Positions 4,964 through 36,487 of a stretch of DNA of 39,103 nucleotides are shown here, in pieces. Source of the DNA: Ruminiclostridium sp. (GTDB lineage: Bacteria > Bacillota > Clostridia > Oscillospirales > Ruminococcaceae). The stretch is taken from assembly GCA_017395555.1 (NCBI GenBank), contig JAFPUE010000047.1:1-39103 (forward strand), written 5' to 3'. Positions within the stretch are counted from its first letter, which is position 1. Each line of letters opens with the position of its first letter. The notes beneath the pieces are model-generated. The model saw only the letters and a list, made by a program, of their open reading frames with translations. It ran no database searches and had not been told where the DNA came from. The position numbers were made by a program, and so were the translations under genes.

Positions 4964-5689
4964 TTGGCTTTTGTAACCGTAAGGAATCTCAGAAAAGTAT
5001 ATCTGCTCGGTAAGGAAAAGGTTGTTGCTCTCAAACATATTGATCTTGATATCGAAAGAGGCGAGATATGCTGTATTCTCGGAACGTCCGGTTCGGGAAA
5101 GTCAACACTGCTGAATATGCTCGCTGGACTTGAAAAGCCTACAAAGGGAGATATCATAATCAACGGTGTCAACGTCGCGAAGATGTCCGAGGGAAAGCTC
5201 GCAAGCTTCCGGCAGGAAACCACAGGTTTTATCTTCCAGTCATACAATCTTATCAACCAGTTCAATGCGATCGAGAATGTGGGTATGCCGCTGATGTTCA
5301 AGGGAATGTCGAGATCGGAGCGCGACAGGAAGGCAAGGCAGATGCTAAAGCTCGTCGGACTCGGAAAGCGTCTCGGGCATCGTCCGAACCAGATGTCCGG
5401 CGGTCAGCAGCAGCGTGTCGGTATAGCGAGAGCGTTTGTTGCGAAACCAAAGCTCGTTTTCGCGGACGAGCCTACCGGAAACCTTGATACCAAGACTACG
5501 GATGAGGTAATGCGTCTGATGGTAAGAATGTGCCGGAAGCACAACATAACGCTTATCATAGTAACGCATGACCTTGAGATAGCAAGGTACACCGATCGTA
5601 TAGTACATATTATCGACGGAGAGATTACGAGTATAGAGAATAACGAATCCGTTTGTCCCGTTGATGATGATATTACCGAAACAGTATAA
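4964..5689 (+). CDS. MacB/LolD-type ABC transporter ATPase
   Basis: Cytoplasmic ATPase of 241 residues that powers a MacB-like (type VII) ABC system. I prefer TTG 4964 to the ATG at 4940: GAGGGTGAG at 4952-4960 sits at the correct distance, and the protein then starts at the conserved FVTVRNLRKVY strand. Motifs in order are Walker A GTSGSGKST, Q-loop FIFQSYNLI, signature MSGGQQQRVGIAR, Walker B LVFADEPTGNLD and the switch His in THD. The pattern LNMLAGLEKPTKGD and the short length are typical of the LolD/MacB/FtsE branch. Twenty-one bases separate it from the surface protein gene, followed by an FtsX-type permease, so the three form one operon. Systems of this type do mechanotransmission or export of envelope molecules rather than bulk import. 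Substrate unknown. Confidence 0.9.
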   Translation: MAFVTVRNLRKVYLLGKEKVVALKHIDLDIERGEICCILGTSGSGKSTLLNMLAGLEKPTKGDIIINGVNVAKMSEGKLASFRQETTGFIFQSYNLINQFNAIENVGMPLMFKGMSRSERDRKARQMLKLVGLGKRLGHRPNQMSGGQQQRVGIARAFVAKPKLVFADEPTGNLDTKTTDEVMRLMVRMCRKHNITLIIVTHDLEIARYTDRIVHIIDGEITSIENNESVCPVDDDITETV

Positions 5690-5710
5690 GAAAAGTGAGG
5701 TTTGCTCAAA

Positions 5711-8140
5711 ATGGTTTTATTTAAGAAGTTTCTGGCTGTTATGACCGCAGCGATCCTGATGATCTGCTGTGCGGCTGTAACGGTATCCGCAGAAGATGAT
5801 GCGGCAGCCGCGGTCAAAGCGCCTGTGCTGTCGATGCTCGAAGGAAAGAATATCACTGTCGATTCCGGCATGAGCACCGTTATATCGTTCCGTTTCACAA
5901 TTAAGAACGGTGCGGCTTTATCCCGCGCGGACTTTACTCTTTCCGGCGCAAATAACGATATTACTATCCAGAACCCGGAAACATCCTCCAACGATCTGAA
6001 AAGTCCCGTATCTTTTATGATAAAGACATCCAAGACTGCAAAGTCCGCTACCCATAATCTTACTCTTAACGTAGTTTCGTACGGTGCTGACGGCACAACT
6101 GCAAACGCGCAGTCTTTCCCCGTGGCTCTGAAGATAAACAGCAGGATCGAAGCACGCGGACTTACGATAGATTCGTACAAAGTTTCCAAGGATAATATAG
6201 CACCCGGAGATAAGTTCGATATCGTTGTTACGTTAAAGAACGAGACTGGCGTTGATATCAAGAACGCCGAGCTTGAGCTTGACGGTCTCAATTCCGAGAA
6301 ATTCGTTCTCGACAAGGGCGCTACAAAGCAGTATATAAATATGGCAAAGGGCGAGACAGGAAAGGTTACATATTCCCTTATCGCGCAGAAGGGTATCACG
6401 CTTGTAAGAGAGACCGTGAACTTAAAGCTCTCGTATTCTCTCGATGCCTCCAAGACCGATCTCAGCAGCTCTACCAGCACAATGATAATCATAAACTGCA
6501 ATCCCGAGGAAAAGAAGGAGAGCAACTATACCGCGTTCGATCTTTCGATGACAAATTATACCGTCAGCAATGATAAGGTTGCGGAGAATACAAAGTTCGA
6601 TCTTGTCGTAGATGTCAAGAACAGCGGCAAGTATTCGATAGACAAGGCGAGAATATCTCTCACAACAGACGGATCCAAGTTCTCCATAGACAGTGGACTC
6701 GGTTTCAGCGATTTCAGTATCGATAAAGGCGCATCCAAGAGATTTACATTTAAGCTCATCGGCTGTGCGGGAATAGCTGCCGAAAGAGAAACTATCCCGA
6801 TCAAGATCGAATACGGAACTGTGTCGAATACCGCTTATGCTACCATAAACTGTGTTCCCAAGAAGGAGAACGACGATAAGGCAAAGCGTGACCTTGCGGT
6901 AACATCGTATTCCACAGATGTTGGTACAGTTGCCGAGAACACCGTTTTCAACCTCTCCGTTGAAGTTCATAATACCACAAACCGTGAGATCAAGGAAGCT
7001 CGTATAACGCTCAACAATCTCGACGGTACAAAGTTTGCTATCGACGGCGGACTCGCTTACGTTGATTTTGATATCGCGGCAGGTGCCACAAAGTATTTCA
7101 ATTTCAGACTTGTAGGCTGCGGCGGCATCACATCTATAAGAGAAGTCATTCCGATCCAGCTCGATTTTGAAAAGGTATCCAACACAACAAACGCGACTGT
7201 AAAGTGCCTTCCCAAGAACACCGATAAGGACGGTCAGAAGGTATTTGCCCCGAATATCATCATCGAGAACTATACATACGGTGATGCGGAGTATGTTACT
7301 GCAGGCAAGGAGTTCCCGCTCAATATCACGATAAAGAACGTATCTACGGTTTCCGATATAGAGAACCTTAAGGTTACCGTAAGCGGTGGTACTCTGACTG
7401 CCGGCAACGAAGCCACTGTTGCTTATTCTCCCGCAAATTCCTCCAATACATTCTTCTTTGACCGCCTTGCTGTACAGGATTCGGTAGATATTTCTATGAA
7501 AATGCTCTCGCTTGTTACGGCAAAGCCCAACAGCTATCCGCTTAACATCGCGTTTGTATATGAGTACTCCATAAACAATCAGCACTATAAAGCTGATAAC
7601 GTACAGGAGTCCATTTCTATCCCTCTGCGTCAGGAGGACAGAGTTTCCATTAACGATCCCGATGTTCCCAACGGCGGCATTTATGTAAATCAGCAGTTCA
7701 CTGTAAGCACAAACATCATCAACAAGGGCAAGAGCGATATCTACAACGTAAACGTAAGCGTCAGCGGCGATGACTTTACCGCGGACAGCAATTCCTACTA
7801 TATCGGCAACATAAAGAGCGGTTCCGAGGAATACTACGATGTTAAGCTCACTCCTCTGTCTGCCGGATCCGGAAGCGGCAGCTTAAAGATCACATACGAG
7901 GATGCCAACGGCGATGCGAAGGAGACCGATCTTCCTTTCACATACAACGCAGAAGAGCTTATTGCCGAAGACTTCGGTATGGGAATGATGATGCCCGAGG
8001 AGCCCGTACAGGAAGGCCCGAATTTCGTACTCTTGATAGGTATCGGTGTTGGTATCATTGTACTGATAATAGTAATAGTTGTAATTGTTAAGCACGCCAA
8101 GAAGAAAAAAGCGGAGATGATGGACGATGAGGATCTTTGA
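5711..8140 (+). CDS. Large surface protein with tandem beta domains and C-terminal membrane anchor
   Basis: 809 residues from ATG 5711 (GTGAGG 10 bases upstream; the in-frame TTG at 5702 is too close to that site). It begins with a signal peptide (FLAVMTAAILMICCAAVTVSA) and ends with one membrane span (residues about 775-798) and a short lysine/acidic tail, so nearly the whole chain is outside the cell. The body is built from repeated CARDB/NEW3-like (COG1361) beta domains of about 120-130 residues. Three successive copies share the marks NxxFDLVVDVKN, KFxIDxGL and RETIPIxI, with a conserved GC(A/G)GI turn. Sitting between an ATPase and an FtsX-family permease and overlapping the latter by 14 bases, it occupies the place MacA-type adaptors hold in Gram-negative systems. 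Probably the extracytoplasmic partner of the transporter; no enzymatic motif seen. Confidence 0.8.
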   Translation: MVLFKKFLAVMTAAILMICCAAVTVSAEDDAAAAVKAPVLSMLEGKNITVDSGMSTVISFRFTIKNGAALSRADFTLSGANNDITIQNPETSSNDLKSPVSFMIKTSKTAKSATHNLTLNVVSYGADGTTANAQSFPVALKINSRIEARGLTIDSYKVSKDNIAPGDKFDIVVTLKNETGVDIKNAELELDGLNSEKFVLDKGATKQYINMAKGETGKVTYSLIAQKGITLVRETVNLKLSYSLDASKTDLSSSTSTMIIINCNPEEKKESNYTAFDLSMTNYTVSNDKVAENTKFDLVVDVKNSGKYSIDKARISLTTDGSKFSIDSGLGFSDFSIDKGASKRFTFKLIGCAGIAAERETIPIKIEYGTVSNTAYATINCVPKKENDDKAKRDLAVTSYSTDVGTVAENTVFNLSVEVHNTTNREIKEARITLNNLDGTKFAIDGGLAYVDFDIAAGATKYFNFRLVGCGGITSIREVIPIQLDFEKVSNTTNATVKCLPKNTDKDGQKVFAPNIIIENYTYGDAEYVTAGKEFPLNITIKNVSTVSDIENLKVTVSGGTLTAGNEATVAYSPANSSNTFFFDRLAVQDSVDISMKMLSLVTAKPNSYPLNIAFVYEYSINNQHYKADNVQESISIPLRQEDRVSINDPDVPNGGIYVNQQFTVSTNIINKGKSDIYNVNVSVSGDDFTADSNSYYIGNIKSGSEEYYDVKLTPLSAGSGSGSLKITYEDANGDAKETDLPFTYNAEELIAEDFGMGMMMPEEPVQEGPNFVLLIGIGVGIIVLIIVIVVIVKHAKKKKAEMMDDEDL

Positions 8141-25711: not shown

Positions 25712-25740
25712 GAAAAACAACGAGAAAAAGGAGGATGAAA

Positions 25741-26919
25741 ATGAGACCTTCAAAAGCATTGGCTTCAATACTGCTTTCCGTAACATTGCTGATGTGCGGC
25801 TGCGGCGGCAATAAAGCTGCTCCCTCTGTTACAACTGCGGCAGCCACGGAAGCGGTTACCGAAAATAGATCAATTCCCGCCGATACAAAAGAAATGCGCG
25901 ATATATCCGTGCAGGAGCTTGTCGGAGAAATGAAGACGGGCTGGAACCTCGGCAATACGTTTGACTCTCTCGGCGGAGAGACCGCGTGGGGAAATCCGTA
26001 CACCACAAAGGCTATGATAGACTGTGTTGCGGAAGCGGGATTCGATGTTATCCGTATTCCGACGACGTGGGGAGAGAAAATGGACGAGTCCGACAAGATA
26101 CCGGACGAATGGATAAACCGCGTTCAGGAGGTAGTCGATTACGCCATAGACAACGGAATGTACGTTATCCTAAACAGCCACCATGAGACCTCGTGGATAA
26201 AGCCCGCAACAGATCAGCTCGACAGCTTTATGCCGAAATTCGAGGCAATGTGGAAGCAGATAGCCGAGCATTTCGCGGATTACGGAGATCACCTTCTGTT
26301 TGAGGGACTGAACGAACCGCGTATTGAGGGCGGTAAAGCCGAATGGTCAGGCGGTACAAAGGACGGCCGTGCGGCGCTTAATGAGCTTAATAAGAAATTC
26401 GTTGAGACCGTTCGTGCGACAGGCGGGAAAAATGAGAAGCGCGCGCTTCTGATAACCACTTTTGCTGCAGCCGTAGCGGAGGTAACGTTCAAAGACCTTG
26501 AAATACCGGACGACGATCATGTTCTTGTTTCGCTTCACGCGTACACGCCGTACAACTACACATACCATTCCAATTCCGAGTGGGAGGTGTACGAGTTTGA
26601 CGAGCAGGTCGGAAACAACATAGACGGCGTTTTTGAACTGATAGACGAGTATTTCACCTCGAAGGACATTCCCGTTATAATCACGGAATACGGCTCGGTG
26701 AGCAAGGCCTTCCCGGGTACCGATGATCGCAACGACGCGGAAAACGTTAAGTGGGTGAATTACTACATTGACCGCGCCGAGAAGTCCGGCATTCCCTGCG
26801 TATGGTGGGACAACGGTTTGTACTACGGAAGCGGAGAAAGGTTCGGTATCTTTGACCGCAAAAGCCTGAAATGGTATGTACCCGATCTTGTTGATGAAAT
26901 AATGGCTGTGAGCAAATAA
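25741..26919 (+). CDS. GH5-family cellulase lipoprotein
   Basis: 392 residues from ATG 25741, since GGAGG (25730-25734) is six bases upstream; the ATG at 25735 directly abuts it. The lipobox-like LMCGC puts the lipidated Cys at 21. A short Ala/Thr linker precedes the TIM barrel: TGWNLGNTFDSLGGETAWGNP, FDVIRIPTTWG, NSHHETSW, FEGLNEPR (acid/base Glu192), SLHAYTPY, and IITEYGSV (nucleophile Glu316), with CVWWDNG near the end. The pattern HHE..W plus NEPR is typical of endo-beta-1,4-glucanases of subfamily GH5_4 type. No carbohydrate-binding module is attached; surface anchoring would be through the lipid. A monocistronic unit with its own promoter and terminator. Confidence 0.93.
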   Translation: MRPSKALASILLSVTLLMCGCGGNKAAPSVTTAAATEAVTENRSIPADTKEMRDISVQELVGEMKTGWNLGNTFDSLGGETAWGNPYTTKAMIDCVAEAGFDVIRIPTTWGEKMDESDKIPDEWINRVQEVVDYAIDNGMYVILNSHHETSWIKPATDQLDSFMPKFEAMWKQIAEHFADYGDHLLFEGLNEPRIEGGKAEWSGGTKDGRAALNELNKKFVETVRATGGKNEKRALLITTFAAAVAEVTFKDLEIPDDDHVLVSLHAYTPYNYTYHSNSEWEVYEFDEQVGNNIDGVFELIDEYFTSKDIPVIITEYGSVSKAFPGTDDRNDAENVKWVNYYIDRAEKSGIPCVWWDNGLYYGSGERFGIFDRKSLKWYVPDLVDEIMAVSK

Positions 26920-27287: not shown

Positions 27288-28061
27288 TCAGAACAGCTGT
27301 TCTATGATATCCGTCAGAACAGCCGCAGCGGGTGCGGCAAGCTCGCATATCTGCAAAAACCAGCCCTCGGTATCGCCCGTTATACCGCCGAAGCTGCGGT
27401 ACGCCGATATTCGGTAATACAGCAGGCAGAGAAAGAACACGAGCAGCACCGCGGCTCCCGTCCATATATCAGCCGCGAGCATGAACATATACGACGAAGC
27501 GCAGACAGCGATAAGCACGGCTGTCGTTATTGCCTTGTGAGCCGGCTCGGAAAAGCTCTGCAGCGTTCCCTCATTTTTGGCGCACTTCATTGTAACTGCC
27601 GCAAGACCGCTGAACGCGCGTGACATGACAAAGCAGAGCGCGATAACAACGGCGGTGTTTAATGTGCGTACAGCAGAGAACACGGCAGCTTGCAATAGAA
27701 AATACAAGATCGAGTATATCACCGCAAACGAGCCGATATGCGGATCGGACATTACAGCGAGCTTTTTCGCCCGGTCACCGAGACAGGCTCTCGCGTCCGT
27801 TACATCGCAGAAGCCGTCCGCGTGTATCCCGCCTGTCACCAACAGGGGCAGCGCCACGCTCACAGCGCCTTTCAGAAACTCGTTGATACCGAGAGCGGCG
27901 CAGATATAGAACCACAGAAGATACAGCCAGCATATCACCGCTCCGATAAGCGGGAAAAAGCACAGCGAATACCGGTGGTTTTCTTCCTTCCATTCTATCT
28001 TCGGCATCGGTATGCGCGAATACATCGCAAAAGCCGAGATCATGGACTTGAATACAATCAT
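27288..28061 (-). CDS. cobS: Adenosylcobinamide-GDP ribazoletransferase
   Basis: 257 residues with six or seven membrane helices. CobS joins adenosylcobinamide-GDP with alpha-ribazole to make adenosylcobalamin (or its phosphate), the last assembly step, at the membrane. Diagnostic motifs are GGIHADGFCDVTDA (about residues 77-90), where the acidic residues bind metal and substrate, MSDPHIGSFAV, and FGGITGDTEG near the C-terminus. Length matches the family (about 250). AAAGG six bases upstream of the ATG. It diverges from cobO. Other cob genes are not in the window, so this pair may serve salvage of cobinamide or lie apart from the main cluster. Confidence 0.93.
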   Translation of the reverse strand: MIVFKSMISAFAMYSRIPMPKIEWKEENHRYSLCFFPLIGAVICWLYLLWFYICAALGINEFLKGAVSVALPLLVTGGIHADGFCDVTDARACLGDRAKKLAVMSDPHIGSFAVIYSILYFLLQAAVFSAVRTLNTAVVIALCFVMSRAFSGLAAVTMKCAKNEGTLQSFSEPAHKAITTAVLIAVCASSYMFMLAADIWTGAAVLLVFFLCLLYYRISAYRSFGGITGDTEGWFLQICELAAPAAAVLTDIIEQLF

Positions 28062-28839: not shown

Positions 28840-29439
28840 ATGAATATTGTGTGCTTGGATATGGAAGGCGTACTTGTGCCGGAAATATGGATCGCGTTTT
28901 CGGAGGCTTCCGGGATCCCGGAGCTGCGCAGAACGACGCGTGACGAGCCCGATTATAACAAGCTGATGAATTTCAGACTCGGCATCCTCAAGGAGCATAA
29001 GCTCGGACTGAAGGAGATACAGGCGACTATCGCGAAGATAGACCCGCTGCCCGGTGCGAAGGAGTTCCTTGACGAGCTGCGTTCCATAACACAGGTGCTG
29101 ATACTCAGCGATACATTTGAGCAGTTCGCAATGCCGCTCATGAAAAAGCTCGATTACCCGACTATCTTCTGCAATACGCTCGAAGTTGCTCCCGACGGCG
29201 AGATCACAGGATTCAAAATGCGCTGCGAAAAGTCAAAGCTCACTACCGTAAAGGCTCTCCAGTCCATAGGCTATGAGACGATAGCGAGCGGTGACAGCTT
29301 CAACGATCTCGCAATGATACAGGCAAGCAAGGCGGGATTTCTCTTCAAGAGCACCGAAAAGATCAAGGCTGACTATCCCGATATCCCCGCGTTCGAGGAG
29401 TTCGACGATCTGCTCAAAGCGATCAAGGAAGCTCTTTAA
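28840..29439 (+). CDS. thrH: Phosphoserine phosphatase/homoserine phosphotransferase ThrH
   Basis: 199 residues, HAD-superfamily phosphatase. ThrH removes phosphate from phosphoserine and can transfer it to homoserine, linking serine and threonine synthesis. The first HAD motif is CLDMEGVLVPE, with Asp nucleophile and the Glu replacing the second Asp as in ThrH and unlike classical SerB (DxDxT). Motif II is LILSDTFEQF, motif III uses Lys in MRCEKSKLTTVKAL, and motif IV is ASGDSFNDLAM. The opening and PLPGAKEFLDELR closely follow ThrH proteins. Own promoter and terminator, hence monocistronic. Confidence 0.93.
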   Translation: MNIVCLDMEGVLVPEIWIAFSEASGIPELRRTTRDEPDYNKLMNFRLGILKEHKLGLKEIQATIAKIDPLPGAKEFLDELRSITQVLILSDTFEQFAMPLMKKLDYPTIFCNTLEVAPDGEITGFKMRCEKSKLTTVKALQSIGYETIASGDSFNDLAMIQASKAGFLFKSTEKIKADYPDIPAFEEFDDLLKAIKEAL

Positions 29440-30934: not shown

Positions 30935-31924
30935 TTATTTCTTTTTCTTTCCTGTCTTTTTATTGGTGTTTCCCTTTTTCATCAGCTTTTCGGAATGTAC
31001 TATAAGTATGTCGTTCTCGGCTATCGTAAGTCTGTCGTTGGGAACGATCGTGAGCTCGCCGCGTATAATCATATATATCCTTATGCCGTAGTTGTCGTTT
31101 ATTTCGTCGGACGTAAGCCCGATAAACCCGCTGCTCCTGTCGCACAGTATCTCGCCGACTTCGTGGATATCATGGTATTTACGATCGGAGTTTTCGCTTT
31201 TCGAGAACTTCTCAACGAAACCCGCGCTTATGATACCGGTAGGTACCGCGACTGCGCACACGCCGAGAAAGGCAATGAATATCGCGATTATCCTGCCGAT
31301 AACGGTCACGGGGTAAATATCGCCGTAGCCTACGGTGAGAAGCGTGGATACGCTCCACCATATACCGGAGAAGGCGTTCTCGAATGCTTCCGGCTGTGCG
31401 TCATGCTCTGCGCCGTACATTGCCAGCGAGGACGCGAGAACAAGAATAATTATCAGAAACAGCGACGAAAAGAGCTGTTTTCTTTTTTCTATCAGGACTT
31501 CCTTTATAAGATTGAAGGAGTCATACTGCGAGTTTATACGGAAAAGGTGGAATATACGAACGACGCGCAGCATTCTGAATATTACCATTCCGTCGAGGAA
31601 GAAGAAGGGAAGTATGGTGAGAAGGTCAATAATTCCGTCGAATGAGATAAGAAATCTGAATACGGAGCTCAGCTTGTTTTTTCGCGGGTAAAGTATGTCG
31701 GAGGTCCATATTCTGAGCACATACTCAATGCTGAATATGATTATGGTGACATACTCGGTCACCTTGAAAGCCCCGTGCAGCGAGGAAAGCTCATCGAAAG
31801 TCCCGAGCAGCATGGCGAGTATATTGAGTATTATGACGGCTGAAATGAAGTAGTCGAAGGCACGGCTCGGCAGGTCTTCCTTGTTGCCGATCTGGATTAT
31901 ATCAAAAATGCGTTTTTTTGTCAT
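30935..31924 (-). CDS. Voltage-gated-type potassium channel (Kch family)
   Basis: 329 residues with six membrane segments. The fourth has arginines every third position (FRMLRVVRIFHLFRI), like a voltage sensor, and the pore carries the K+ selectivity filter TVGYGD between the fifth and sixth segments. After the last segment a C-terminal cytosolic stretch of about 90 residues ends in a lysine-rich tail; it includes GIRIYMIIRGELTIVPNDRLTIAENDILIVHS, which resembles a TrkA-C domain, so gating may depend on a nucleotide or other ligand. GGAGG is 6 bases from the ATG. Its promoter lies in the first unit of the adjoining 94-bp tandem repeat. Function: K+ conductance and membrane potential; direction cannot be told. 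Confidence 0.9.
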   Translation of the reverse strand: MTKKRIFDIIQIGNKEDLPSRAFDYFISAVIILNILAMLLGTFDELSSLHGAFKVTEYVTIIIFSIEYVLRIWTSDILYPRKNKLSSVFRFLISFDGIIDLLTILPFFFLDGMVIFRMLRVVRIFHLFRINSQYDSFNLIKEVLIEKRKQLFSSLFLIIILVLASSLAMYGAEHDAQPEAFENAFSGIWWSVSTLLTVGYGDIYPVTVIGRIIAIFIAFLGVCAVAVPTGIISAGFVEKFSKSENSDRKYHDIHEVGEILCDRSSGFIGLTSDEINDNYGIRIYMIIRGELTIVPNDRLTIAENDILIVHSEKLMKKGNTNKKTGKKKK

Positions 31925-32302: not shown

Positions 32303-33436
32303 ATGGAAAGATGTATTGCCGCATTCAGCGCACGCAGTGAACGGATAGGTGAAACGTATTCGTTTGACGATGTTTATGAACGGCTGTCGGGAAACGGTAC
32401 GCCGATACTTGTGATATTTTCGTCTGATTTTGACCATTTCGCGGATTATTCCGGACTGTTTCACGAAAAATTCCCGGAGTCGGACGTTCTCGGAATGTCC
32501 TCGGAATGTAACTATTCCTCCGAGGGATTTTCGGATACCGGTCTTTCCGCGCTCGCGATATACAGCGGTATAGAATGTGCGTGCGGTGTTCTGCATGAGG
32601 CGGGAAAATGCCCCATAAAATACATGAGCGCCGTGAAGGAAGCAATAGAAAAGCTCGGGATAACCTCGTCAGAAGCCGACAGAATATGCAGTCTTGAATT
32701 TACCGCGTCCGTCGAATATAACGAGGAGCTGGTGCTCGACACATTCAGAACCGCGCGAGGAAATCTGAAAATACCGCTTCTCGGCAGTACGGCGGCGGAG
32801 AGACGCGGTACCGGCAGATCGTATGTTTCGCTGAACGGCAAGGTTTACGAGGACGAATGTGTGTTTGCGTTCATAAGGAACATGAACGGGCGTATATCTA
32901 TGATAAGCGAGAATACATACCGTTCCACCGGCAAGACCTTTATGGCAACAGACGTTGACTGTGACAGCAAAACGGTATATTCCTTCAACGAAAGACCCGC
33001 TGCTGTCCACCTCGCTTCGCTCATCGGTGTCGACGTGCCTGTTGTTGCGCGGGATATCGCAAGGTTCCCGATAGGAAGGATATATGACGATATAATCTAT
33101 ACCGCGACGGGAAGAAATGTGGGAAAGGACGCGTCGATCGTGTTCGGCTCGGCTGTGTATAATTACTCAAAGGCTGTGCTTCTCGAACCGGACGATCCGC
33201 ACAGGACCGCCGGCAGATTTATCGAAAAGCTCGATAATTTAGGCTTCAGCCCCGCGTTCTCACTTGCCGTGAACTGCGCTTTCGATTTTGATATTTTTGC
33301 TGACACGGGCATAACCGGAAAATTTATCGGACAGCTTGCCGAAAAAGCGGGAGTATATACCGGAGTATCCGGACGCAACGAGCAGCTCGGCTGCGCGAAT
33401 ATGAGCAAGACTATGCTGCTTGCGGCATTTGAATGA
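32303..33436 (+). CDS. FIST-domain sensor protein
   Basis: 377 residues, no signal or membrane segment. It has the FIST N-terminal and C-terminal domain order: the N-part with ILVIFSSDFDHFADYSGLF and LGMSSECNYSSEGF (small-molecule pocket region), GSTAAERRGTGRSYV in the middle, and the C-part with FPIGRI, GKDASIVFGS and the closing CANMSKTMLL. The family is proposed to sense amino-acid-like or other small ligands and is often fused to, or encoded beside, GGDEF/EAL signalling proteins. That is the case here: the next gene, 39 bases on, carries GGDEF and EAL domains. GGAGG seven bases upstream of the ATG. It probably feeds a ligand signal into the following phosphodiesterase protein. Confidence 0.85.
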   Translation: MERCIAAFSARSERIGETYSFDDVYERLSGNGTPILVIFSSDFDHFADYSGLFHEKFPESDVLGMSSECNYSSEGFSDTGLSALAIYSGIECACGVLHEAGKCPIKYMSAVKEAIEKLGITSSEADRICSLEFTASVEYNEELVLDTFRTARGNLKIPLLGSTAAERRGTGRSYVSLNGKVYEDECVFAFIRNMNGRISMISENTYRSTGKTFMATDVDCDSKTVYSFNERPAAVHLASLIGVDVPVVARDIARFPIGRIYDDIIYTATGRNVGKDASIVFGSAVYNYSKAVLLEPDDPHRTAGRFIEKLDNLGFSPAFSLAVNCAFDFDIFADTGITGKFIGQLAEKAGVYTGVSGRNEQLGCANMSKTMLLAAFE

Positions 33437-33475: not shown

Positions 33476-36400
33476 ATGATCAGATATAACAACGGTATCA
33501 TAACCGTAAACGACAACTGCATCGGCTGCGGAAGATGTATGCTTGAATGCCCGTCTTCCGAGTGCAACGTTTCGGTCTATGACGGAGGAAAGCGAAAGCT
33601 CGCGGTGAACGCGACGAACTGCATACTTTGCAGCTCGTGTATAAGTACCTGCACCCATGAAGCAAGAGAATACGAGGACGATACCGAGCGTTTCCTTACA
33701 GACCTTGCTTCGGGAGAAAAGATTTCCGTTATGCTCTCTACGGGCTTTTACCTCACGTTCGGTCAGCGTTCGCGCGGCATTATCGGATATCTTCGCTCGC
33801 TCGGCATAAACAAGATCTATGACAGCGGCTTCGGCGCGGATATATTTGTCTGGCTGAACGCGAGATACATAAAGACCTACGCCGGCGAACGCGAAGACAG
33901 ACCGTTCATTATGAACGCCTGCCCGGCGGTAACGCACTATATTTCGAGATATGTGCCGAAGGCTGTCAAGTACATAATTCCTGTCTATACGCCGCCGCAG
34001 TGTACAGCGGTGTATGCCAAAAAGTACCTCGGCGACAAATCGAAGCTGGCATATATAAGCTCGTGCATTTCAAGAAAAGATGAATTTGAGAACACCGACG
34101 CCGATGTGAAAATTGATTACAGCATTACATTCGCTCATTTGATGAAGTATCTGGAGGGTATCGATCTCAGCTTCTTCAACGGTGAGGCAGACCTTGTTTC
34201 CGACAGCTTCGGCAGCGTTATTTCCGCGAGCGTCGGACTCCGTGAATATGCCGCGTCTCTTTTCTCCGATGAGGAGATAATTTCCTGTTACCCGGGACTG
34301 ACCGAGAGCACCAGAAAGCTGATTGCCACAACGGGAATTATGAACATACAGCATCCGACGCTCTCCATTATTTACGGCTGCCGTAACGGCTGCGCTTCAA
34401 GCGGAGGTGCCGGAATAGCTCCGGAAAACAACTACGAGACTTATCTCTCCGAGCTCCAGCGTCTTCGTACTCTGACAATGAAAAAGAAGCACGAGTTTTC
34501 TTCCTATTGGGAGATATACCGCTCGCTTTCCGAGAAATTCTCCGAGCTTGACCCGGACGATTTTACTTACGTTCCGAAGGACAGATTTGTTCAGCAGCAT
34601 TCCGTTCCGGGACCAGTTATCAACCAGATTTTCAACACGATGAATATGACCACCGAGGCCGCGCGTCATGTTGACTGCCGTGCCTGCGGATACAATACCT
34701 GCTATGAAATGGCGGAGGCTGTCGCAAAGGGATACGCACGCATAAGCGACTGTTCACGGTATGTTTCCGATGAGTACAAGCGCCGTGTTTACTATGATGA
34801 TACTACGGGAATGCTTTCTTCGGAGGGTTTCCATTCCGAGGGAACCATGCTGCTGCGTACACACCCCGAAAAGAAGTATGTTGTCTGCGCGCTGAATATC
34901 AACGGTGTCAAGACTATCAACGACCTTTATAATTTCGGCATAGGAACTCAGGTGATCTGTTATATTGCAAAGAAGCTCGAAGGGATGTTCCGCGGACAGG
35001 GTATTTGTTCAAGGCTCGGCGGAAACAACTTCGTTCTGTGTTTTGAAAACACAGAGGCCAATATAGAAAAGCTGTTTTCGATAAATTCGTTTGATTGCAG
35101 CAGGTTCGGTGTAAATATGCCCGTGACTGCGAGATTCGGGCTTTGTGAAGCCGCTTCCGCGGGTGATCTTCGCCGTATCACAAACTGCGCTTCGTTCGCT
35201 ATGGAGAAAAATACGGTCAAGGCGAGAAACGCGTTTAAGTGGTATGACGACAAGATGCGCGAATCCATAATGATCGAGTCCTCCATTACGTCTCAGATGA
35301 ACACCGCTATGGACAACCGTGAGTTTGTCGCTTATCTCCAGCCGCAGTACAACCACTCCACCGGAAAGCTCGTTGGCGCAGAAACTCTCTGCCGATGGAT
35401 AAAGCCCGACGGAACAATAATTTCCCCAGGTATTTTCATTCCTATATTTGAAAAGAGCGGATTTATCAAGAAGCTCGATGTGTATATGTGGGAATACTCG
35501 TTCAGATTGGTTACAACATGGCTTGAAAAAGGTATTAAGCCCGTTCCGATCTCGGTAAATATCTCGCGTATCAGTCTTGCCGACGATGATATCGTGAGGG
35601 TAATAGGCGAGCTTAAAGAAAAATACCCGATCGACACGTCGCTGCTGCACTTTGAAATTACCGAAAGTGCGTATATGGACGATCAGAGATCGCTGATAGA
35701 GCGCATAACCAAGATACGCGAAATGGGCTTTATTATAGCAATGGACGATTTCGGAAGCGGTTATTCGTCCCTTAATACACTGAAAGATATCCCTATTGAT
35801 ATTCTCAAGCTGGATATGGGATTTATCCGTGGCGGGACAAATCAGGAAAAGGGAAGCAATATCATAGGCTCCGTTATCCGTATGGCTCATTCACTCGGAC
35901 TTGTTACCGTTGCGGAGGGCGTGGAAAAAGCGGATCAGGCGGATATGCTGCAAAGCCTCGGCTGCGATATAATACAGGGATATCTGTACGCACGTCCCAT
36001 GCCTGTTGCCAATTACGATGAGCTGCTTGCGAAGAGCGAGAGTGAGATCATAAACACAGAAAGCTCGATGAGTTATATTAACGTAAGCAAATTTTATGAC
36101 ATGAACGCACCCGAAACGAAGATGTTCGACAATTTTATCGGACCCGCAGCCGTATTCGAATATGTCGAAGGCAAAGCCGGTGTTGTGCGTATGAATGATG
36201 CGTATGTGGATATGCTCGGATATACGGGTACATCGCCAATGGTGTTCAGTCAGACATACGATCAGGGACTGACAAAAAAGGGAAGAGAAGCCATAAAAGG
36301 CGCGATAAAAAGGGCTGTGAACGGCGAAAAGGGAGCTGTGTGCATCTTCGGTTATGAACGCCCCGACAAGAAGCATATTCTTGTTCGCTCCAAGATATGG

Positions 36401-36487
36401 TTTATGCATTACAGCGGCGATTATGCAATAATTTTTGTAGTTTCGGACGATGTGACCGATGTTCTCGGATATGAGAATCTATACTAG
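33476..36487 (+). CDS. Sensory [FeFe]-hydrogenase-like protein fused to FeS, GGDEF, EAL and PAS domains
   Basis: 1003 residues. In order: a ferredoxin part with two 4Fe-4S sets (Cys15/18/21/25 and 49/52/55/59); an H-cluster-type domain with cluster cysteines at 149 (NACPAV), 197 (SSCIS), 302 and 306 (GCRNGC); a 4Fe-4S cluster domain (DCRACGYNTC, Cys401/404/409/426); a GGDEF domain reading GGNNF (515-519), so presumably not a cyclase; an EAL domain with its key residues (Glu636 in AETL, Asn695, Glu727, Asp757-Asp758, Lys778, Glu814, Gln834), so probably an active c-di-GMP phosphodiesterase; and a C-terminal PAS domain. Ala148 replaces the proton-transfer Cys of catalytic hydrogenases, as reported for group C HydS. 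No maturases are nearby. Likely senses H2 or redox state and changes c-di-GMP. GGGGGAAAG precedes the ATG. Confidence 0.88.
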   Translation: MIRYNNGIITVNDNCIGCGRCMLECPSSECNVSVYDGGKRKLAVNATNCILCSSCISTCTHEAREYEDDTERFLTDLASGEKISVMLSTGFYLTFGQRSRGIIGYLRSLGINKIYDSGFGADIFVWLNARYIKTYAGEREDRPFIMNACPAVTHYISRYVPKAVKYIIPVYTPPQCTAVYAKKYLGDKSKLAYISSCISRKDEFENTDADVKIDYSITFAHLMKYLEGIDLSFFNGEADLVSDSFGSVISASVGLREYAASLFSDEEIISCYPGLTESTRKLIATTGIMNIQHPTLSIIYGCRNGCASSGGAGIAPENNYETYLSELQRLRTLTMKKKHEFSSYWEIYRSLSEKFSELDPDDFTYVPKDRFVQQHSVPGPVINQIFNTMNMTTEAARHVDCRACGYNTCYEMAEAVAKGYARISDCSRYVSDEYKRRVYYDDTTGMLSSEGFHSEGTMLLRTHPEKKYVVCALNINGVKTINDLYNFGIGTQVICYIAKKLEGMFRGQGICSRLGGNNFVLCFENTEANIEKLFSINSFDCSRFGVNMPVTARFGLCEAASAGDLRRITNCASFAMEKNTVKARNAFKWYDDKMRESIMIESSITSQMNTAMDNREFVAYLQPQYNHSTGKLVGAETLCRWIKPDGTIISPGIFIPIFEKSGFIKKLDVYMWEYSFRLVTTWLEKGIKPVPISVNISRISLADDDIVRVIGELKEKYPIDTSLLHFEITESAYMDDQRSLIERITKIREMGFIIAMDDFGSGYSSLNTLKDIPIDILKLDMGFIRGGTNQEKGSNIIGSVIRMAHSLGLVTVAEGVEKADQADMLQSLGCDIIQGYLYARPMPVANYDELLAKSESEIINTESSMSYINVSKFYDMNAPETKMFDNFIGPAAVFEYVEGKAGVVRMNDAYVDMLGYTGTSPMVFSQTYDQGLTKKGREAIKGAIKRAVNGEKGAVCIFGYERPDKKHILVRSKIWFMHYSGDYAIIFVVSDDVTDVLGYENLY

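Follow-up and report, generated by a model that had tools for sequence, protein, structure and literature searches.

A hydrogenase-type iron-sulfur module with a remodelled cofactor pocket fused to GGDEF and EAL domains in a Ruminiclostridium genome

The window analysed here is one contig of 39,103 bases (JAFPUE010000047.1, Ruminiclostridium sp.) of a 2.6 Mb draft genome that is 86.67% complete; its closest named relatives are metagenome-assembled genomes (MAGs) that carry the labels Ruminococcus, Ruminiclostridium or Clostridia bacterium, and of these two came from water deer rumen. It encodes a 1003-residue chain in which a module resembling the putative sensory [FeFe]-hydrogenases (HydS) is followed by a degenerate GGDEF domain, an intact EAL domain and a PAS-like tail. 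On balance, we favour the reading that this fusion protein is an iron-sulfur (redox) gated phosphodiesterase of cyclic di-GMP (c-di-GMP) whose diiron site has probably been lost. The gene and its domains are:

33476 to 36487, + strand: fusion gene, 1003 amino acids, in the order Fer4x2, H-domain, FeS, degenerate GGDEF, EAL, PAS-like
33506 to 33664, + strand: two [4Fe-4S] ferredoxin motifs, residues 11-63 (Fer4_10 and two CxxCxxCxxxC)
33713 to 34411, + strand: H-domain (Fe_hyd_lg_C), residues ~80-312, with C149, C197, C302 and C306 (Pfam and an alignment numbered by CpI)
34673 to 34753, + strand: C-terminal FeS domain, residues 400-426 (Pfam PF04060, Cx2Cx4Cx16C)
34790 to 35215, + strand: degenerate GGDEF domain, residues 439-580 (Pfam, 37.5 bits; motif GGNNF at 515-519)
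35297 to 35998, + strand: EAL domain, residues 608-841 (Pfam, 214.5 bits; catalytic motifs complete)
36143 to 36460, + strand: PAS-like C-terminal domain, residues ~890-995 (sub-threshold Pfam match, secondary structure in a predicted model, alignment)

The open reading frame (ORF) has no internal stops, and its ATG start lies just downstream of GGGGGAAAG. A first-pass annotation had described one chain of this composition and proposed a profile search, in which all five Pfam families scored above their own cut-offs and PAS stayed below threshold. Fer4_10 (residues 11-59) was barely over, with 25.7 bits against 25.5, while Fe_hyd_lg_C (residues 97-292) reached 83.5 bits (E 2.4e-23, cut-off 22.1) and FeS 37.4 bits. 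The cysteines of the ferredoxin part are C15/18/21/25 and C49/52/55/59, and those of the FeS domain are C401/404/409/426. Chance or mis-assembly was considered as the origin of the fusion and ruled out, because within the genus the same GGDEF-EAL layout recurs in five more genomes (L015, L016, L018, L216, L218), and it is also seen in one Treponema MAG (UBA1240, L019, 8001-11456). The latter places the fusion in a Spirochaete, and the gene may have moved between phyla.

Within the H-domain, C149, C197, C302 and C306 align with CpI C300, C355, C499 and C503, as the first-pass annotation had assigned them, and all four columns are retained in 8 of 8 rows of the window's clade. They had been taken as the sign of an H-cluster, which they do not establish on their own, because a plain [4Fe-4S] cluster needs four cysteines too. 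The following positions of the site were read from the alignment:

33917 to 33922, + strand: Ala148 (CpI C299 column) and Cys149 (CpI C300 column)
33737 to 33742, + strand: Ser88-Thr89 at the CpI Ala230-Pro231 columns, a remodelled pocket
34073 to 34075, + strand: Arg200 at the CpI Lys358 column, a basic residue near the distal cyanide of the diiron unit (role from the available part of PMC11376134)

In the window's clade, Lys358 is replaced by Arg and Pro231 by Ser or Thr, both being lost in 8 of 8 rows (three clade rows were added later to reach eight). Among 101 hand-picked comparison rows outside this Clostridial clade, K358 is kept in 98 (the exceptions being L148 with R, and L110 and L133 with Q) and P231 in 100, the remaining row having a gap. 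The two columns are near-invariant in the other classes examined, putative sensors included, and both are kept in the Treponema homologue and in GGDEF-only proteins carrying the same module (8 of 8). We take the residue that the review cited next places by the distal cyanide to be CpI Lys358. The accessible portion of that review, which names the residue an arginine, describes its mutation to Asn as giving an enzyme without [2Fe]-site signals (PMC11376134). Since the [2Fe]-pocket residues are replaced, the former H-cluster site would most likely hold only its [4Fe-4S] half.

The reported substitution of Ala148 fared less well as a mark of group C HydS. It is not a clade trait, since the column reads Ala in two, Ser in five and Asp in one of the eight rows, and Cys stands at the C299 column in 10 of the 11 PAS-type HydS-like rows from the examined genomes. 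The M353 column of the window module is Ser. As a separate observation, the L1 motif TSCSPGW occurs in 13 of 16 group A rows and gives Ser where CpI has C300, a feature shared with HydA1 of PDB 7q4v.

The foremost alternative, which we regard as somewhat unlikely, is an H2-sensing phosphodiesterase with a complete H-cluster that is reduced by molecular hydrogen (H2), EAL activity following. It accounts for the retention of the four cysteine columns, for the replaced C299 and the Ser at M353, both as described for putative sensory enzymes, and for the HydS spacing Cx2Cx4Cx16C; the intact pocket of the GGDEF-only proteins and of the Treponema homologue also speaks for it. Against it stands the change at K358 and P231 throughout the clade. 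The genomes point both ways: HydG was found in 4 of 9 clade genomes (G002, G011, G451 and the Treponema genome G431), which is in its favour, and was not found in the window genome, G460 (96% complete), G467, G449 and G465, which is not. (G429 was taken to equal G460, and G430 to equal G449, from equal contig numbers and places.) The window genome itself yielded no HydE, HydF or HydG above cut-off and, as a further point against H2 sensing, no conventional hydrogenase; its only two PF02906 matches, both divergent, are the fusion protein and one more module, for which no output was recognised.

Co-occurrence with HydEFG was tried as a decisive test and dropped. Twelve of 41 genomes (G007, G010, G015, G017, G020, G021, G027, G029, G030, G036, G038 and G039), eight of them listed as 97-100% complete, have a HydA match above 300 bits and none of HydE, HydF or HydG above cut-off, so missing maturases say little about an H-cluster in this group. 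Nor does the module track HydG, which was found in 9 of 17 genus genomes with the module and 6 of 8 without it (25 genomes).

Several points weigh against a redox-gated enzyme that has lost its diiron site. Three of the 8 genus genomes that carry the window's clade also have HydG, as does the Treponema genome, and the window genome is incomplete in a group where missing maturases mean little. L148, a kinship row outside the clade, combines Arg at the K358 column with a retained P231, and an arginine may supply the same hydrogen bond as Lys358. The predicted model of the full chain, made from five sequences, is unusable for the pocket (mean predicted local distance difference test score 55.3, with most of the H-domain below 50). 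Weighing both sides, the earlier proposal that H2 or redox state sets c-di-GMP stands better in its redox half: redox sensing appears likelier from the altered pocket, and H2 sensing less likely.

Relatives of residues 1-430 carry methyl-accepting chemotaxis protein (MCP) domains, MCP plus a receiver, PAS plus a hybrid histidine kinase, a hybrid kinase, GGDEF, or GGDEF-EAL; outputs are exchangeable behind the FeS domain, which implies that the module acts as an input. A phylogeny against hydrogenase groups A to D had also been proposed. In a 106-row tree, built by a quick method and with a long-branch warning, the module rows form one clade of 45 rows (Shimodaira-Hasegawa-like approximate likelihood ratio test, 100) apart from PAS-bearing HydS-like, short group-D-like, group B and group A rows. 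Named references of groups C and D (TmHydS and TamHydS included) are absent from the trees, and rows were labelled by architecture and by the pocket residues published for those two enzymes. Rows were hand-picked from the fetched loci (group A, 16 of 30 loci; class-wide HydS-like, 8 of 12), and some MCP labels were guessed from length, with L093, L100 and L220 unclassified and L137, L139 and L148 giving no match. The description of the module as HydS-type needs qualifying: a HydS-like module and a probable phosphodiesterase do share one chain, and in this tree the module falls outside the PAS-bearing HydS-like rows. In seven loci (L104, L105, L106, L107, L108, L113, L118) a gene of that PAS-type HydS-like class shares a short locus with a group-B-like hydrogenase gene; PAS in this class was checked by Pfam in one other row, L111.

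A more careful 54-row tree resolves the window's clade as nine rows with the Treponema protein basal (support 100/100), and a GGDEF-only clade of eight rows (L102, L182, L084, L219, L223, L224, L225, L217; support 100/100) nested among rows that, where their output was classified, have MCP. As the two clades are separate and the latter lies among MCP rows, c-di-GMP outputs are, on these trees, acquired at least twice. The module was found in 46 of 71 genomes of the genus; the matches were read in part, so that locus counts are lower bounds: at least eight loci of the window's clade (six with EAL, one ending after FeS, one cut by a contig end) and at least eight GGDEF-only loci, the GGDEF motif being intact in 7 of 7 readable. 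The clade member ending shortly after FeS (L017, 3996-5363) lacks GGDEF-EAL and still adjoins a FIST gene. Class-wide, in a draw of 391 genomes that left out the window genome, 18 of 22 close matches (E at or below 1e-100) were read, giving 11 MCP, 3 kinase, 4 unclassified and 0 GGDEF.

With pocket and GGDEF both intact, the GGDEF-only proteins are candidate H2-responsive diguanylate cyclases. Both kinds of module occur together in G011, G460, G467 and G451. They could form a matched opposing pair of H2-sensing cyclases and a redox-retuned phosphodiesterase, H2 and redox jointly setting one messenger; we think this unlikely, and HydG in only 2 of 8 genomes with GGDEF-only loci (G011, G451) counts against it.

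In the C-terminal half, GGNNF departs from the GG[DE]EF active site of diguanylate cyclases, and the EAL motifs (ETL, SVNIS, EITES, DDFG, KLD, AEG, QG) are present. Among the five proteins checked, the EAL set is complete and GGDEF degenerate in all five, and the best matches of this half include DosP and a Motility regulator. The EAL domain is probably, to judge from these motifs, a c-di-GMP phosphodiesterase. LapD and FimX are examples of receptors with degenerate GGDEF-EAL domains. A non-catalytic receptor of this kind, which would bind c-di-GMP without hydrolysis and relay the signal to another protein, for instance FIST, would suit the degenerate GGDEF and the ETL or ESL found in place of EAL in the four Clostridial proteins examined. 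It is nonetheless quite unlikely here, given EAL catalytic residues that are invariant over five aligned proteins and best Protein Data Bank matches of the GGDEF-EAL part to GGDEF-EAL constructs named Motility regulator. The GGDEF match begins at residue 439, 13 residues beyond Cys426 of the FeS domain; none of the five aligned homologues has a gap in this stretch, a spacing compatible with a signal passing straight into the GGDEF-EAL pair.

The PAS domain of the first-pass annotation is in part borne out. No PAS family was matched at E 0.01 in the full chain by Pfam, and the isolated tail of the fusion protein gave PAS_8 at E 0.014, under its cut-off; residues 891-994 show a PAS-like order of strands and helices in the predicted model. 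Among homologues, the L015 tail comes nearer (PAS_3, E 2.3e-4, still under its cut-off), the L018 tail has no Pfam PAS match, and L016 lacks the whole tail in the alignment.

That the H-domain is a decaying relic under FIST or PAS control is highly improbable, since its replaced pocket residues and the truncation of L017 after FeS are outweighed by the four cysteines kept in 8 of 8 rows and by low ratios of nonsynonymous to synonymous divergence (dN/dS) against the closest relative, L015. These are ~0.06 in the H-domain, similar to EAL (0.06), and 0.03 in FeS, 0.07 in GGDEF and 0.09 in the tail, and are rough, dS being above 0.9 throughout and saturated; the H-domain is accordingly not read as decaying.

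Domains, cysteines, motifs, pocket changes, purifying selection and neighbours are read from the sequence; cluster content, loss of [2Fe], the signal, the sign of the response and phosphodiesterase activity are predicted. The redox-gated phosphodiesterase would be a cytoplasmic sensor enzyme whose module descended from putative sensory [FeFe]-hydrogenases. Four [4Fe-4S] clusters would be bound: the ferredoxin part would take two, and the former H-cluster site and the FeS domain one each. A redox change, whether ferredoxin delivers electrons or an oxidant or nitric oxide attacks, may shift the FeS domain, which via its short link would act on the inactive GGDEF; GGDEF would gate EAL, and the intact EAL would linearise c-di-GMP. 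The protein encoded upstream may be a second input:

32303 to 33436, + strand: FIST-domain gene, probable partner (PF08495, E 2.2e-20), ending 39 bases before the fusion gene on the same strand

At 7 of the 8 clade loci found in the genus, the next gene upstream is a FIST gene, separated by 3 to 180 bases. The eighth, L216, has no FIST there and instead a sugar-binding-GGDEF gene (5067-6974) overlapping the fusion by 4 bases. Such a gene precedes FIST in L016 (3413-5329) and L221 (2834-4705), and the ORF lists of the remaining five clade loci show none at that place. Because their three domains read GGDEL, these genes are predicted cyclases only; together, the FIST genes (7/8) and predicted cyclase genes (3/8) upstream support a c-di-GMP role. 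FIST as an exclusive partner of the fusion was rejected, with 14 FIST matches in 10 of 41 genomes and 3 beside the fusion, and the Treponema locus has no FIST neighbour. The remaining neighbours in the window are ordinary: a GH5 cellulase (25735-26919), CobS (27288-28061), a ThrH-like phosphatase (28840-29439) and a voltage-gated-type ion channel (30935-31924).

Among known systems, the sensor-GGDEF-EAL layout is shared with DosP, RmcA and MorA, GGDEF-EAL phosphodiesterases with cofactor sensors; unlike them, the window protein has a hydrogenase-type iron-sulfur module as its input. NARF/Nar1 keeps the cysteines and has no [2Fe]. It offers a parallel to the probable loss of the diiron site here, but it is eukaryotic with a different role and is likened by description only; the available part of PMC8924675 says of human NARF that this hydrogenase relative lost its H2-linked function. 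With HydS of groups C and D (TmHydS, TamHydS) the protein shares two N-terminal [4Fe-4S] motifs, an H-domain, the C-terminal Cx2Cx4Cx16C, no Cys at C299 and a small residue at M353, traits described in the accessible parts of PMC8163306 and PMC10055695; the four H-cluster cysteines are present as well. It differs in having GGDEF where group C HydS has PAS, right after FeS, with its PAS-like domain after EAL; in Arg at K358 and Thr at P231; and in falling outside the HydS-like rows of the 106-row tree, which lacks named HydS. The HydDB classes C1 and C2 (histidine-kinase-linked and chemotactic) resemble relatives of the window module with MCP or hybrid kinase in the same chain, whereas the window protein has a c-di-GMP output, a comparison made with HydDB's table and not with sequences. 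As available, that source gives kinase-linked, chemotactic and phosphatase-linked group C subtypes with no c-di-GMP output for [FeFe] enzymes, its diguanylate-cyclase-linked group being [NiFe] 2c (PMC5037454). A term search of a 2022 census of c-di-GMP inputs returned no mention of hydrogenase, iron-sulfur, 4Fe-4S, Fe-S or molecular hydrogen (PMC8846402). A term search of PMC9499530 had no hits. In the parts available, rumen work places PAS-bearing group C enzymes next to genes of Ruminococcus albus that are H2-regulated (PMC6776011), and group C2 candidates in one genome study did not survive validation (PMC9431212). No such fusion of hydrogenase module and c-di-GMP domains appeared among the literature titles and abstract openings listed, from which subscription papers are mostly missing. 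The protein combines known parts with an output that looks new and a cofactor pocket that has been remodelled, literature coverage limiting any proof of novelty.

These findings bear on the questions of whether H2 is what sensory hydrogenases detect and which role their C-terminal [4Fe-4S] cluster plays; in the accessible part of a 2026 study, the C-terminal cluster of TamHydS was not reduced by H2 and its role was left open (PMC13104023). Because the output is an enzyme in the same chain, an effect of H2 or potential would be readable as c-di-GMP turnover in one tube. The GGDEF-only relatives, with pocket and GGDEF intact, would be the better test of H2 sensing, and the window protein, with its altered pocket, the counter-sample. 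The 12 genomes with strong HydA matches and no maturases raise the question of hydrogenase maturation, or of hydrogenase identity, in them. If the proposed reading is true, an iron-sulfur input would be added to the known c-di-GMP sensors.

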